Shown piece after piece: positions 20,280 through 46,483 of a stretch of 48,096 bases of DNA. The stretch covers positions 1 through 48,096 of the forward strand of contig JARHYC010000031.1 in assembly GCA_029264955.1 (NCBI GenBank). Direction: 5' to 3'. The number at the start of each line of letters is the position of its first letter. Positions within the stretch are counted from its first letter, which is position 1. The notes beneath the pieces were generated by a model. It did not search any database, was not told the origin of the DNA, and was given only the letters and a program-made list of their open reading frames with translations. This DNA is from Faecalibacterium sp. GTDB lineage: Bacteria > Bacillota > Clostridia > Oscillospirales > Ruminococcaceae. The position numbers and the translations under genes are program-made.

Positions 20280-21157
20280 TTTTGCTCATCCTCCGGCGGA
20301 GAGGTCGGATCATTTTCGGCATCTGCGTGTGCAAAGGTTGCTACATATTTACTCGGAGGCATACCGACAGCTTTTTTGAACACACGGGAGAAATAGAATT
20401 GATCGAAGAAACCAACAGATACGGCAACTTCCGCAATGGAAAGCGTCGAGTTGCGCAGCAAATTGCAGGCTTCATTGATGCGGTATTCGGTCAGATAGTC
20501 AATGGGGCTTTTGCCAACATTGCTCATAAATACACGGTACAGATGGCTACGGGATACGCCGACGCTCTTGGCAACATCGTTAATGGAAATATCGTGGGAA
20601 TAATGAAACTGAATGTACTTGATTGCGTTGAGCACGTACTGGCTTGCAGAACTGGTGGCGTGGGGCTCGCTGTCACGGGTTTCCTTCATCAGTTCAGCAA
20701 TGAATAGATACAGATAACCTACCATAGCAGCTTCATCCTGTGGTTCCAATCCACGAGCCTTGTAAATGTTCAGAATTGCTTCTTTCAAGGCAGAACCATT
20801 CTTGGCGTGGTGAATAGGCGCTAAATCTGTAAACGGAAGCTGTGTAGTCAGTTTGTTGGCGCAGGCACCATTAAAGCCAACCCAGCAGTATTCCCAGGGG
20901 TCTTCTGCATCTGCAGTGTATACAATCAACTGGCTGGGTTTGATTAAAAACAGATCACCCGCCTGCAAGTTCCATTGCTCACCATTTACCTTGAAGGTGC
21001 CTTTACCGGATAGGACCAGGTGAATCAGATAGTGGTCGCGGATACCGGGACCCCAGGTATGTGCGGAAACGCACTTTTCCACACCACAATTAAAAATAGA
21101 CAACTCAACATTATCCGTGTAATTTTGCTTAAACGCTTGTTTGTAAACTTCAGCCAT
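20276..21157 (-). CDS. AraC-family transcriptional regulator
   Basis: The 293-residue protein has an N-terminal cupin-type sensory domain (about 15-150: HLVLSGKGTFKVNGEQWNLQAGDLFLIKP) and a C-terminal pair of helix-turn-helix motifs (about 190-285: ISINDVAKSVGVSRSHLYRVF and SIAEVAVSVGFFDQFYFSRVFKK). It fits the sugar-responsive AraC/MelR-like activators. It is divergent from galK with 182 bp between them, so control of galK is plausible. It is coupled to the sugar-binding-like gene by a 4-nt overlap. Confidence 0.93.
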   Translation of the reverse strand: MAEVYKQAFKQNYTDNVELSIFNCGVEKCVSAHTWGPGIRDHYLIHLVLSGKGTFKVNGEQWNLQAGDLFLIKPSQLIVYTADAEDPWEYCWVGFNGACANKLTTQLPFTDLAPIHHAKNGSALKEAILNIYKARGLEPQDEAAMVGYLYLFIAELMKETRDSEPHATSSASQYVLNAIKYIQFHYSHDISINDVAKSVGVSRSHLYRVFMSNVGKSPIDYLTEYRINEACNLLRNSTLSIAEVAVSVGFFDQFYFSRVFKKAVGMPPSKYVATFAHADAENDPTSPPEDEQK

Positions 21158-21339
21158 GATATAACATCCTCTCCCAATCAGGTTACTAGATTAGTATATC
21201 AGTAAATTCAACAAAAGTACATATAAAATTAAAGATGATTGCATTTAACTCCAAAATGTTATACTATAAGCCTATATCCATATAAAAAGCAGTCGACAAA
21301 AACACAGAAATGGTATTGTAAAGGCGGAGGGCGATTCAA
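21158..21339. promoter_or_regulatory. Divergent control region between araC and galK
   Basis: Leftward, TGATATACT (21201-21193 on the minus strand) is an extended -10 about 35 bp before the araC start. It overlaps a short inverted repeat TACTA-gat-TAGTA (21184-21196). Rightward, TATACT at 21260-21265 is a possible galK -10 with a weak TTGCAT -35 at 21239 (15-bp spacer), as expected for an activator-dependent promoter. galK has a good SD (GGCGGAGGG). Confidence 0.45.
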
Positions 21340-22617
21340 ATGGCTTCCAGTAAAGATCTTTTACAAAGTATCCAGCAAGGTGGTTTAGACAAAACACTTG
21401 TACATTTATATGGGCAATCGGCACTGCAGCGGCAAAAGCGGCGATATGCCGCTGCGTTGCATCAGTTTGACCGTTATTTTGGTGCTGCACAGGATGTACG
21501 GATTTATTCGGTTCCGGGGCGAACGGAACTATGCGGCAACCATACCGATCATCAAATGGGAATCGGTTTGGCTGCGGCGGTAGAACGCGATATTATCGCA
21601 GTGGCGGCGGCACGAGACAATGATGTGGTTCGCGTAAAATCGTATGGCTTTGATAAGTTGGACATTGTGGATTTGCGATTGAAAGATCGACAAAGTGCAG
21701 AACACACCCATTCTGCCAGTTTGATTCGCGGAATTGGTTGTGCAATAAGGCAGCAAGGCGGAAAAATCGGCGGGTTTGATGCTTATACCACCAGCGATGT
21801 GCTGCGTGGATCGGGGCTGTCTAGTTCGGCTGCGTTTGAAACAATGATGGGAACAATCTGGAACGATTTGTACAATGAAATGCGATTTTCACCTTTGCAG
21901 ATTGCGCAGATCGGTCAGTATGCGGAAAATACGTATTTCGGAAAGCCGAGCGGCGTATTAGACCCGCTGACCTGTGCCACAGGTGGTATCATTTGTGTAG
22001 ATATGGAACGGGAAGGCAAACCGACTATCTCTAAAATCAAGTGTCCGGAGCTTACACAGGACATAGTATTATGTATTACAGATACTGGTGGCAGCCATAG
22101 CGAACTGACAGAAGAATTCTCGCTGGTTCGCGAAGAGATGGAGTCTGTAGCAAAGGTGCTGGGCTGCAAAAAGCTACGGCAAGCCAGCGAAAAGGAGCTA
22201 TGGGCGAAACTGCCGCATATTCGAAAAGTTTGCGGTGATCGAGCTGCCTTGCGTGCACTCCATTTTTATCAGGAGTGCCGTCGATCCGAACAGGCGTATC
22301 GGGATTTGTCTGTCGGAGATGTGTCGTCCTTTTTACAGCGTATTCAGGAAAGTGAGCATTCGATTTGTCAATATAATCAAAATACATTCTGCCACACAGC
22401 AGAACAGCCTATTTCGCTGGCGTTGGCAGTATCACAAAGTGTATTGCAAGGGCATGGAGCTTACCGGATGCAGGGAAGTGGATTTGCTGGGACAATTCAG
22501 GCATTTGTACCGAAGGCTCTTTTACCGAAATATATCCACCGCATGGAAGCTGTATTTGTTTCCGGTTGCTGCGATGTAATGCAAGTGCGAGAAGATGGTG
22601 CGATACGTTTAGCATGA
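21340..22617 (+). CDS. galK: Galactokinase
   Basis: The 425-residue GHMP kinase phosphorylates galactose to galactose-1-phosphate, entering the Leloir pathway. The galactokinase signature GRTELCGNHTDH is at 60-71, the ATP-binding GHMP motif LRGSGLSSSAA at 155-165 and the third motif GSGFAGTIQAF near 380. It is somewhat longer than the usual 390 residues because of its N-terminal extension. No galT, galE or galactose transporter is adjacent. It lies opposite an AraC regulator and has its own strong SD. Confidence 0.93.
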   Translation: MASSKDLLQSIQQGGLDKTLVHLYGQSALQRQKRRYAAALHQFDRYFGAAQDVRIYSVPGRTELCGNHTDHQMGIGLAAAVERDIIAVAAARDNDVVRVKSYGFDKLDIVDLRLKDRQSAEHTHSASLIRGIGCAIRQQGGKIGGFDAYTTSDVLRGSGLSSSAAFETMMGTIWNDLYNEMRFSPLQIAQIGQYAENTYFGKPSGVLDPLTCATGGIICVDMEREGKPTISKIKCPELTQDIVLCITDTGGSHSELTEEFSLVREEMESVAKVLGCKKLRQASEKELWAKLPHIRKVCGDRAALRALHFYQECRRSEQAYRDLSVGDVSSFLQRIQESEHSICQYNQNTFCHTAEQPISLALAVSQSVLQGHGAYRMQGSGFAGTIQAFVPKALLPKYIHRMEAVFVSGCCDVMQVREDGAIRLA

Positions 22618-22654: not shown

Positions 22655-22691
22655 AGAAAAAAGCCTGACTCAAATTTATCGAGTCAGGCTT
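22655..22691. terminator. Terminator between galK and the purF-like gene
   Basis: AAGCCTGACTC (22661-22671) pairs with GAGTCAGGCTT (22681-22691). On the minus strand it is followed by TTTTTTC, so it best ends the purF-like transcript. In the galK direction the T-run is weak. Confidence 0.85.
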
Positions 22692-22709
22692 CGATGTTTC
22701 TGTTAGAAC

Positions 22710-24116
22710 TTACTCTTTGCCGTTCCAGCAGTAGGTGCAGAGCTTGCAAGGCTCCAGACCAACGGATTCGATCAGATCATCCAGACGGTGATAGCGCAGC
22801 GTGGTAAAGCCCAGCTGGCTGCGGATACCTTCCAACATAGCGTCGTAGTTCTTGCTGTCAGGGTTTGCATAATCAAATAACACTTCTTGGCTGGGGTCTT
22901 TGCCCTCGCGCTCCAAAATGACACGACGGGAAATCAAATCCAGCGGAGAAGTAGAACGGGAGAAATTCAAATACTTGCAGCCAAACATAATCGGCGGGCA
23001 AGCAGGGCGTGCATGAACTTCCTTTGCGTTGCTCTGATATAGGAAATCAGCGGTTTCACGCAGCTGTGTACCGCGTACAATAGAATCGTCAATCAGCAAC
23101 AGACGCTTATTATCAATCAACTGAGAAACAGGAATCAACTTCATGCGGGCAATCATGTTGCGTTGATCCTGGCTGGTCGGCATAAAGGAGCGAGGCCAAG
23201 TAGGCGTATACTTGATGAACGGACGAGTGAAGGGAATGTGTTTTTCATTTGAATAGCCAATTGCGTGCGGTACGCCGGAATCGGGCACACCAGCAACGCT
23301 GTCAACGGTGACATCATCACGCTTAGCTAGCAGACGACCGCAGTTATAGCGCATCTGCTCAACGTTCACGCCCTCATATGTAGAAGTGGGATAACCATAG
23401 TAAGACCACAGGAAGGTGCAAATCTTCATTTCCTTGCGGGCGGGAGAAACGACTTCGTACTTGTCCGGTGTCATGAAGATAATTTCAGCAGGGCCAAGTT
23501 CCTTGCACTGGGTATATCCCAGATTCAGGAATGCGAAGCTTTCGAAAGAAACGCAGTAAGCACCCTCTTTTTTACCCATAATAATAGGGGTGCGCCCCAG
23601 ACGGTCGCGTGCTGCGTAAATACCTTTTTCTGTCAGCAACAGAATCGACATGGAGCCCTGGATTTTTTCCTGTGCATACAGTAGTCCTTCGACAAAGCTG
23701 TCTTTCTGGTCAATCAGAGCTGCAACGATTTCAGTGGGATTGATTTGCTTGCCGCTCATTTCCAGAAAATGAGCATGGCCTTCCTGGAAAAACTTGTTGA
23801 CGAGTTCGTCTGAGTTGGTGATACGACCAACCGTAGTGATCGCATAGCTGCCCAAACGAGAATTAACCAGAAGGGGCTGCGGTTCAAAGTCAGAGATGCA
23901 GCCGATACCCAGATGACCATGCAGGTCTTCTACATCGCGCTCAAACTTTGTACGGAAAGGTGAGTTTTGAATATTGTGAATTGCGCGGTGAAAACCGTCC
24001 TCATCATAAACAGCCAGGCCGCCGCGCTTTGTGCCTAAATGAGAGTGATAGTCTGTTCCGAAGAACAAATCCATCACACAATCGTTTTGAGATGCAACAC
24101 CATAAAATCCGCCCAT
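22710..24116 (-). CDS. PurF-like amidophosphoribosyltransferase homologue lacking the glutaminase nucleophile
   Basis: The 468-residue protein aligns with PurF along its length. The phosphoribosyltransferase half is intact: PRPP loop LLLIDDSIVRGTQ at 339-351, and Cys233, Cys380, Cys460 and Cys463 sit where the [4Fe-4S] ligands of the Bacillus-type enzyme lie. The N-terminal Ntn glutaminase half is degenerate: the start is MGGFYGV, with no Cys where active PurF has CGVFGI, and the usual HNGNL segment reads TVGRIT (95-100). AAGGAGG lies 5 nt before the ATG at 24116, so the N terminus is reliable. It could use free ammonia, lean on another glutaminase, or be a regulator. No other pur gene is nearby. 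Confidence 0.85.
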   Translation of the reverse strand: MGGFYGVASQNDCVMDLFFGTDYHSHLGTKRGGLAVYDEDGFHRAIHNIQNSPFRTKFERDVEDLHGHLGIGCISDFEPQPLLVNSRLGSYAITTVGRITNSDELVNKFFQEGHAHFLEMSGKQINPTEIVAALIDQKDSFVEGLLYAQEKIQGSMSILLLTEKGIYAARDRLGRTPIIMGKKEGAYCVSFESFAFLNLGYTQCKELGPAEIIFMTPDKYEVVSPARKEMKICTFLWSYYGYPTSTYEGVNVEQMRYNCGRLLAKRDDVTVDSVAGVPDSGVPHAIGYSNEKHIPFTRPFIKYTPTWPRSFMPTSQDQRNMIARMKLIPVSQLIDNKRLLLIDDSIVRGTQLRETADFLYQSNAKEVHARPACPPIMFGCKYLNFSRSTSPLDLISRRVILEREGKDPSQEVLFDYANPDSKNYDAMLEGIRSQLGFTTLRYHRLDDLIESVGLEPCKLCTYCWNGKE

Positions 24117-24581
24117 AAAAACCTCCTTGTCGGAGCGTTGAATCATACAAGCTCATGATAGTCGCTGACAATGCATTCGTCAATCGTTCTGAAAAAAGAC
24201 AGACTTTTGTTTCGGGTAAAGTAACAAAATATAGACGCCGAAATGTATAAAAATGGGCTTTTTGTCGGTGAGAAAATGAAAATGTAAGGAAATGAAAATG
24301 GGAAAATGTTGAAAAGGCGGCGAGAGGGCACAAAAAGCAAAAGTGCATGATGGGGCAAGAAGATCGACAGGATGCAATAGGCTGTACAGGGAAAAGCAGA
24401 TAGCTTGACATTGCCGAAGAAACCGTGTTTACTTAATAAAATTATACTGGATTTTTTATGAGATTTAAGACGGAAAAGTTGGATTGAAATCTCTATACTG
24501 AGGACAGCGGATGTCATTTCTAAAAAGTAAGATCCTGTCCTTGGATTGTATAAAACGACAGATTTAGAAGGTGGAGGGAAT
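24117..24581. other. Divergent intergenic region between the purF-like gene and the GT-C-like operon
   Basis: This 465-bp region has no convincing gene. It holds a good leftward promoter (24155-24183), imperfect GAAAATG repeats at about 24272-24312, and a possible rightward promoter TTGACA (24405-24410), 17 bp, TTTACT (24428-24433). No riboswitch fold was recognised. Confidence 0.45.
24155..24183 (-). promoter_or_regulatory. Promoter of the purF-like gene
   Basis: On the minus strand TTGACG (24183-24178), a 17-bp spacer and TATCAT (24160-24155) precede a leader of about 30 nt. No PurR-type site was recognised. Confidence 0.6.
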
Positions 24582-46360: not shown

Positions 46361-46387
46361 AAAGTTTGTATGTACAAATCAAATACA

Positions 46388-46468
46388 GCAAACTTCCTAC
46401 GCCGGCATTACCCGGATCAGGTTAAAGGGTACTCTGCAAGCAGATCTCAGCCTCTCGGCGCCCCTGTT
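46388..46468 (-). ncRNA. TPP riboswitch (THI element)
   Basis: On the minus strand the aptamer shows the conserved THI-box parts: GGGGCGCCGAGAGGCTGAGA at its start, then CTGCTTGCAGAG, and ACCCTTTAACCTGATC with CCGGGTAATGCCGGCGTAGG at its end. It lies between the promoter and a terminator hairpin ahead of thiT. The call is strong. Confidence 0.95.
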
Positions 46469-46483
46469 TTTATGTCTTGTTTT

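Follow-up and report, generated by a model that had tools for sequence, protein, structure and literature searches.

The window, that is, the whole stretch of 48,096 nucleotides of a Faecalibacterium sp. contig (JARHYC010000031.1) that was analysed, carries on its minus strand, at positions 22710..24116, a coding sequence for a 468-residue PurF homologue (MGGFYGV...CTYCWNGKE) that lacks the N-terminal cysteine, an assignment based on the open reading frame, a match to the TIGR01134 profile and a Foldseek comparison of its AlphaFold2 model with 1ao0_A. From reading of the sequence, the start was placed at ATG 24116, which AAGGAGG-TTTTT immediately precedes, the Shine-Dalgarno motif AAGGAGG (24122..24128, minus strand) lying 5 nt 5' of the ATG. 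The sole in-frame upstream start, ATG 24146, would add the extension MIQRSDKEVF ahead of MGGF and provides no N-terminal cysteine; a cysteine codon just 5' of ATG 24146 is preceded by no start codon, with a stop further up. An upstream start yielding an N-terminal cysteine, which an earlier note on this DNA had named as one finding that would overturn its reading of the gene, was looked for and rejected, since every available start codon of the window gene gives a protein without it. An M-G/S-G-x-F start is present among the first start codons of the relatives. Just 3' of the stop, a terminator scan identified a terminator-like hairpin of 14 pairs followed by a T run (22660..22692, minus strand); by count, the three terminator-like sites of the window (mean of 2.2 in shuffles) are not above chance, and its five promoter-like matches (mean of 2.5 in shuffles) are near it. 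An Rfam element at the PurF-homologue gene was also considered and rejected, the Rfam matches in the window being two tRNAs and a TPP riboswitch, all located elsewhere, the latter scoring 71 bits at 46377-46475 (minus strand). The adjoining gene (21340-22617, plus strand) encodes a galactokinase-like protein that remains below family cut-offs (best 150 vs 499 bits).

The TIGR01134 (purF, NCBIfam) profile matches the window protein with 181.4 bits, short of the family cut-off of 350 bits, and with an E value of 3.8e-53, so that homology to PurF is not attributable to chance. With Pfam, GATase_7 is above threshold while Pribosyltran and GATase_6 are below theirs. The AlphaFold2 model (pLDDT 84.1) matches 1ao0_A in Foldseek as a full-length PurF fold, with TM scores of 0.82/0.84 and an rmsd of 3.3, and from this match both halves are predicted to retain the PurF fold. 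The alignment divides the protein into an Ntn, or former glutaminase, half (residues 1-230; 23427..24116, minus strand) and a phosphoribosyltransferase (PRTase) and Fe-S half (residues 231-468; 22713..23426, minus strand), the boundary at residue 230 being a choice made in this analysis. In the latter, the PRPP loop DDSIVRGT (residues 343-350; 23067..23090, minus strand) is conserved in both Cys-less and canonical groups and, across 106 Cys-less rows, reaches 99-100% at each position except I346 (97%). The four [4Fe-4S] positions are likewise kept, as had been proposed for them and for the PRPP loop from the sequence of this gene alone: Cys233 (23418..23420) and Cys380 (22977..22979), the first and second, are cysteine in 106/106 rows, and Cys460 and Cys463 (CxxC; 22728..22739), the third and fourth, in 105/106 with one row gapped, all on the minus strand and all aligned to conserved cysteine columns that correspond to the B. 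subtilis-type ligand positions. The flexible loop reads KYTPTWPRSF in the Cys-less group versus KN-R/K-Y-I/V-GRTF in canonical PurF.

The glutaminase half has undergone extensive replacement of residues. In a profile of 55 sequences set against B. subtilis PurF, position 3 falls on chain residue 2, which means that Gly2 of the window protein (codon 24111..24113, minus strand, aligned to 1ao0/1gph) occupies the position that Cys1, the Ntn nucleophile, has there. This residue is glycine in 103 and serine in 3 of the 106 Cys-less rows, the serine being found in L027, L046 and L050 (a Massilimicrobiota MAG, an Erysipelotrichaceae MAG and Thomasclavelia cocleata). At the places of Arg26, Arg73, Asn101, Gly102 and Asp127, which we take to be the glutamine-binding residues by their E. 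coli numbers and roles, the window protein has leucine, a gap, valine, glycine and proline, Gly102 alone being retained; the GHVRYxTxG segment is partly deleted, and TVG replaces HNG within TVGRIT (residues 95-100). The same replacements extend to the whole group, with leucine at the Arg26 place, a gap at the Arg73 and Tyr74 places, valine, isoleucine or threonine at the Asn101 place and Gly102 retained, each in 106/106 rows. The His71 place, whose equivalent is missing in the window protein, is occupied by cysteine in 100 rows and by serine, alanine or isoleucine in six, and an aspartate at the Asp127 place survives in 1/106 (a Lachnoanaerobaculum row). The segments aligned to the former glutamine pocket have at the same time acquired residues conserved group-wide, namely DYHSHLGT, IHNI, NSPFR and CISD. 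The description given in the earlier note, of a PurF homologue whose MGGFYGV start follows a Shine-Dalgarno sequence and offers no cysteine nucleophile, whose HNGNL-type segment reads TVGRIT, and whose glutaminase half is dead beside an intact PRTase and cluster half, is borne out by these alignments, which show the glutamine site to be lost in sequence, with the gene on the minus strand.

The alignment comprised 106 Cys-less rows, the window protein included, and 70 canonical rows, not all of them independent. The canonical rows were chosen by a pattern that demands cysteine, so that its presence in 70/70 is by construction, and the Cys-less pattern cut rows at a methionine followed by G, S, A or C, which makes their common start partly by construction as well. 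Three canonical ORFs (L191, L117, L128) were left out, as were six Cys-less ORFs with no M-start matching the pattern, of which L131, L212 and L196 read LGG and L141 IGG at the Cys1 place, without cysteine, and L060 and L178 are truncated so that this place is not seen. The Cys-less rows form one clade, with a FastTree support of 0.84 and a stem of 1.35 substitutions per site under midpoint rooting; judged from these sequences, the window protein is no lone oddity and belongs to a clade of 106 rows with the same losses. The Ntn half of this clade is not decaying and is conserved about as much as that of canonical PurF. In four bins matched for PRTase identity, Ntn identity divided by PRTase identity was 0.96, 0.928, 0.895 and 0.89 for Cys-less proteins and 0.905, 0.88, 0.884 and 0.896 for canonical ones. 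Moreover, the window gene differs from L003 at codon positions 1/2/3 by 46/28/128 in the 230 Ntn codons and by 75/64/134 in the 238 PRTase codons, and from L004 by 45/28/130 and 76/62/144, respectively, with fewer differences at positions 1 and 2 in the Ntn half in both comparisons. The proposal that selection acts on the PRTase and cluster half is thus correct insofar as that half is intact, but selection is not confined to it, as both comparisons of the Ntn half show.

Such constraint, together with the presence of cysteine at position 13 in 97/106 rows and at position 73 in 100/106, could be taken to mean that the Ntn half still acts as an amidase but employs another nucleophile or donor, for instance Cys13 if processing exposes it, or Cys73 within the rebuilt pocket. 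This is very improbable, given that residues 1-16 contain no cysteine in 7/106 rows, six of which come from genomes where no PurF but the Cys-less form was found, that position 73 is alanine in L197 and isoleucine in L119, both from such genomes, and that Cys13 sits 13 residues N-terminal (5'-ward) of the conserved histidine, compared with a usual spacing that we take to be 24 residues (E. coli). Cys13 as a universal nucleophile was rejected on the 97/106 count.

The genome to which the window belongs is a draft of 1.88 Mb in 39 contigs, 99.59% complete, and the TIGR01134 profile search found in it one match, the window gene. A second, Cys-bearing purF in the same genome, which the earlier note had suggested looking for, was not found by this search. 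Most of the purine pathway is nevertheless kept: in a search covering purine genes other than PurB, PurM, PurL (which has a PurQ-like stretch), PurD and PurN were above their cut-offs, PurE was also present, and AICARFT_IMPCHas, IMP_cyclohyd, SAICAR_synt and AIRC were above Pfam thresholds, the SAICAR synthetase and the IMP cyclohydrolase-like protein being below NCBIfam cut-offs. The PurC of this genome (G000:C18:31241-31873; L218:5194-5904, minus strand), recognized by Pfam SAICAR_synt, is of a divergent type. The window gene stands alone, away from the purine cluster; on contig C24, purE abuts purM with 85 nt between the profile ends and no purF. A genome of the same genus, G226, has the order purE (20896-21360), canonical purF (C14:19484-20839), purM, and a search at E 1e-36 gave no Cys-less copy in it. 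Of the two genomes of this genus that were searched, one is canonical-only and the other Cys-less-only by these searches.

A wider survey was made in a class sample of 147 genomes and a family sample of 100, all drafts, with G000 (the genome of the window) and G126 in both; in the class sample, Cys-less-only genomes were picked from the genome rows among the matches listed, and each was then checked. The two samples contain 22 Cys-less-only genomes (G000, G156, G176, G206, G222, G225, G229, G053, G099, G141, G111, G085, G132, G042, G140, G014, G015, G020, G045, G046, G070 and G115), G071 having been excluded because of canonical-like fragments at two contig ends. They were compared with genomes having no PurF match at E 1e-36, in which weaker matches (to 1e-34) were assumed, without individual checks, to be GlmS-like. 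PurD was above its cut-off in 21/22 Cys-less-only genomes (the exception being G115) versus 2/27 without PurF (Fisher p 1.3e-10), these two being G180 and G189, 70% and 89% complete. PurE was found in 22/22 versus 1/7 of the no-PurF genomes searched, a PurC-type protein at E 1e-20 in 21/22 (not in G222) versus 0/7, and PurM above its cut-off in 16/16 Cys-less-only genomes searched, out of the 22. In 16 of these genomes, that of the window included, PurC is divergent, with a score of 108-130 bits that does not reach the TIGR00081 cut-off of 189.9, and it is above the cut-off in G206, G156, G176, G229 and G085. In 11/22, again including that of the window, purE adjoins purM, the profile ends being 50-129 nt apart, and in 8/22 (G206, G156, G222, G225, G070, G046, G014 and G115) the Cys-less gene lies directly 5' of purM.

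Within the family sample, 19/26 carriers of the Cys-less gene also have canonical PurF; among genomes at least 90% complete, canonical PurF is absent from 6/24 carriers versus 0/44 others (p 0.0012), the 44 being assumed to have PurD, which was searched in part of them. That a canonical purF is present in the species and was missed in the draft assembly, as the 39 contigs and the tendency of drafts to lose genes at contig ends would allow, is extremely improbable in the face of this difference, of a genome that is 99.59% complete, and of a purE-purM junction that is intact inside one contig, as is the case for ten further Cys-less-only genomes; on the intact junctions and the completeness statistics, an assembly gap was rejected as the cause of the missing purF. 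Outside the two samples, 26 of the 80 genomes that carry the nearest loci were searched: 20 have canonical PurF above the cut-off, one (G258) has it split, and five are Cys-less only, namely G251 (Lachnoanaerobaculum sp. ICM7), G261, G262, G263 (a Treponema merdequi MAG) and G269, for which completeness was unstated. PurD is above its cut-off in all six of the latter genomes, G258 included. In G258 the canonical purF is divided over two overlapping frames (G258:C1:606936-608277), by a real break or a sequencing error, and the genome carries an intact Cys-less gene as well. A control genome, Bacteroides ihuae, gave a PurF match at E 1e-3 and none at 1e-36, together with PurD and PurE matches; as a lead only, Bacteroides may also be without canonical PurF.

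Canonical PurF or one of the purine genes searched for, from references without PurE and PurB, lies on the same strand within ~6 kb in seven of the 80 nearest loci, the flanks being full in 40/80, and in five of the 80 a canonical PurF adjoins the Cys-less gene. Tandems of Cys-less and canonical purF were recorded in 11 loci or genomes (G151, G081, G148, G237, G239, G228, L012, L023, L035, L045 and L063), those of G148, G237, G239 and G228 being called by coordinates. Among the 25 largest clusters of other neighbours in 79 loci, whose first residues were inspected, none is common to more than 11 loci and no conserved glutaminase partner was seen, a carB-like gene occurring in three; a conserved partner gene next door was rejected on this clustering of the nearest loci. 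These data bear on the idea that phosphoribosylamine is made with ammonia supplied in trans by the glutaminase of another protein instead of free ammonia. The 11 tandems are compatible with it, since canonical PurF could donate ammonia in a mixed complex, and cells contain other glutaminase domains, such as the PurQ-like stretch of PurL in the window genome; it is nonetheless unlikely, with a canonical PurF adjoining in only five of 80 loci, no conserved glutaminase partner among the clusters inspected and no canonical PurF match at all in the 22 sampled genomes. The tandem arrangement in some genomes, an Ntn half that is remodelled yet conserved, and the crenarchaeal PurF', which is likewise described near purF (PMC3261824), would also suit a role without catalysis, as a regulator or as a modulating subunit of canonical PurF. 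Against such a role, which must be considered highly doubtful, the protein is the sole PurF found in 22 sampled genomes, with PurD in 21 of them and PurE in 22, it retains the PRTase and Fe-S residues, and its gene lies directly 5' of purM in eight of the 22. Regulation of purine synthesis had been among the roles put forward for this gene at the outset; as a role on its own it is unlikely, because no other PurF was found in the genome of the window, where most of the pathway is kept.

A possible connection with nitrogen metabolism in general was observed for GlmS, another Ntn glutamine amidotransferase, which was not found above its cut-off in the genome of the window. It is absent from 7/22 Cys-less-only versus 1/19 canonical genomes (41 searched in a hand-picked set; p ~0.05). 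NagB, which can aminate fructose-6-phosphate with ammonia, is above its cut-off in 8/8 genomes without GlmS (G000, G176, G206, G053, G099, G042, G046 and G166) and in 3/15 GlmS-bearing genomes searched, G226 among them; in the window genome the NagB match spans one TAA, perhaps its own end. In G020, a Cys-less-only genome, glmS and the Cys-less purF are neighbours on one strand (G020:C105:2401-5583). The missing GlmS has possibly been replaced by an ammonia-using NagB, a pattern that would fit, circumstantially, life on ammonia, the GlmS link itself being weak.

PurF, the enzyme of the committed step in purine synthesis, is usually regarded as glutamine-dependent. Given a lost glutamine site, an intact PRTase half and a genome in which no further PurF was found, formation of phosphoribosylamine from PRPP and ammonia is the simplest reading, and it is fairly likely that the window protein is a working, glutamine-independent PRPP amidotransferase of the de novo purine pathway, fed by free ammonia. 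The genomic evidence supports well a working glutamine-independent enzyme; ammonia is the donor that we infer, its free use being probable because no normal PurF was found in the genome, and the suggestion in the earlier note that the protein may use ammonia is adopted here as the best reading at that strength. Several observations count against this reading: the window gene lies alone outside the purine cluster, few of its nearest loci have purine genes close by, most carriers of the Cys-less gene have canonical PurF as well, the genomes are drafts, and the flexible loop departs from the canonical sequence. In the proposed mechanism, the PRTase half, with its PRPP loop, flexible loop and Fe-S cluster, would convert PRPP and free ammonia to phosphoribosylamine, ammonia presumably being plentiful for a cell in an ammonia-rich, gut-like habitat. 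The Ntn half would persist as a folded, strongly constrained domain with a rebuilt glutamine pocket, which probably serves structure, or gating or regulation of the PRTase site. It is possible, though only as a tentative extension, that there is a clade-wide ammonia-fed PurF in which the glutaminase half was rebuilt into a new conserved ligand site controlling the committed purine step, and which replaced normal PurF on several occasions, at least in genomes of Clostridia type and of Treponema; such a site may sense nucleotides or ammonium/nitrogen, for instance, or accept another nitrogen donor.

Compared with canonical PurF (TIGR01134; B. subtilis 1ao0, 1gph), the window protein shares the two-half architecture and fold, the PRPP loop and the four Fe-S cysteines, and in some Cys-less genomes the position before purM; it differs by the absence of the Ntn cysteine and of equivalents of Arg26, His71, Arg73, Asn101 and Asp127, by the changed flexible loop of its group and by its score of 181 against the 350-bit cut-off. 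In E. coli PurF, according to PMC3261824, changing Cys1 to Ala or Ser abolishes the use of glutamine while ammonia still serves, which is the behaviour proposed here, except that those are laboratory point mutants whereas several pocket residues are replaced clade-wide in the present case. No bacterial Cys-less clade was pointed to in open-licence papers at the level of titles and abstract beginnings, and the closest published idea found there is the crenarchaeal PurF', a homologue without the N-terminal cysteine whose gene lies near other purine genes and close to normal purF, and for which an ammonia-dependent PRPP aminotransferase was offered as one possible role to be tested (PMC3261824). 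The missing N-terminal cysteine is common to both, a likeness drawn by description and not by sequence; however, each crenarchaeon studied there also has a Cys-bearing PurF, whereas in the window genome and 21 other sampled genomes no PurF but the Cys-less form was found.

The main new result is genomic, namely that in a genome retaining most of the purine pathway no PurF other than a Cys-less form was found. With it, the proposal made for crenarchaeal PurF' can be put to the test in bacteria, among them one represented by an isolate genome, Lachnoanaerobaculum sp. ICM7. If the ammonia-fed reading is true, it would offer a case in nature for testing how the channel of an amidotransferase is lost and the protein turns into an ammonia-using enzyme, and metabolic models of this gut clade would change with respect to nitrogen need and the response to glutamine analogues.
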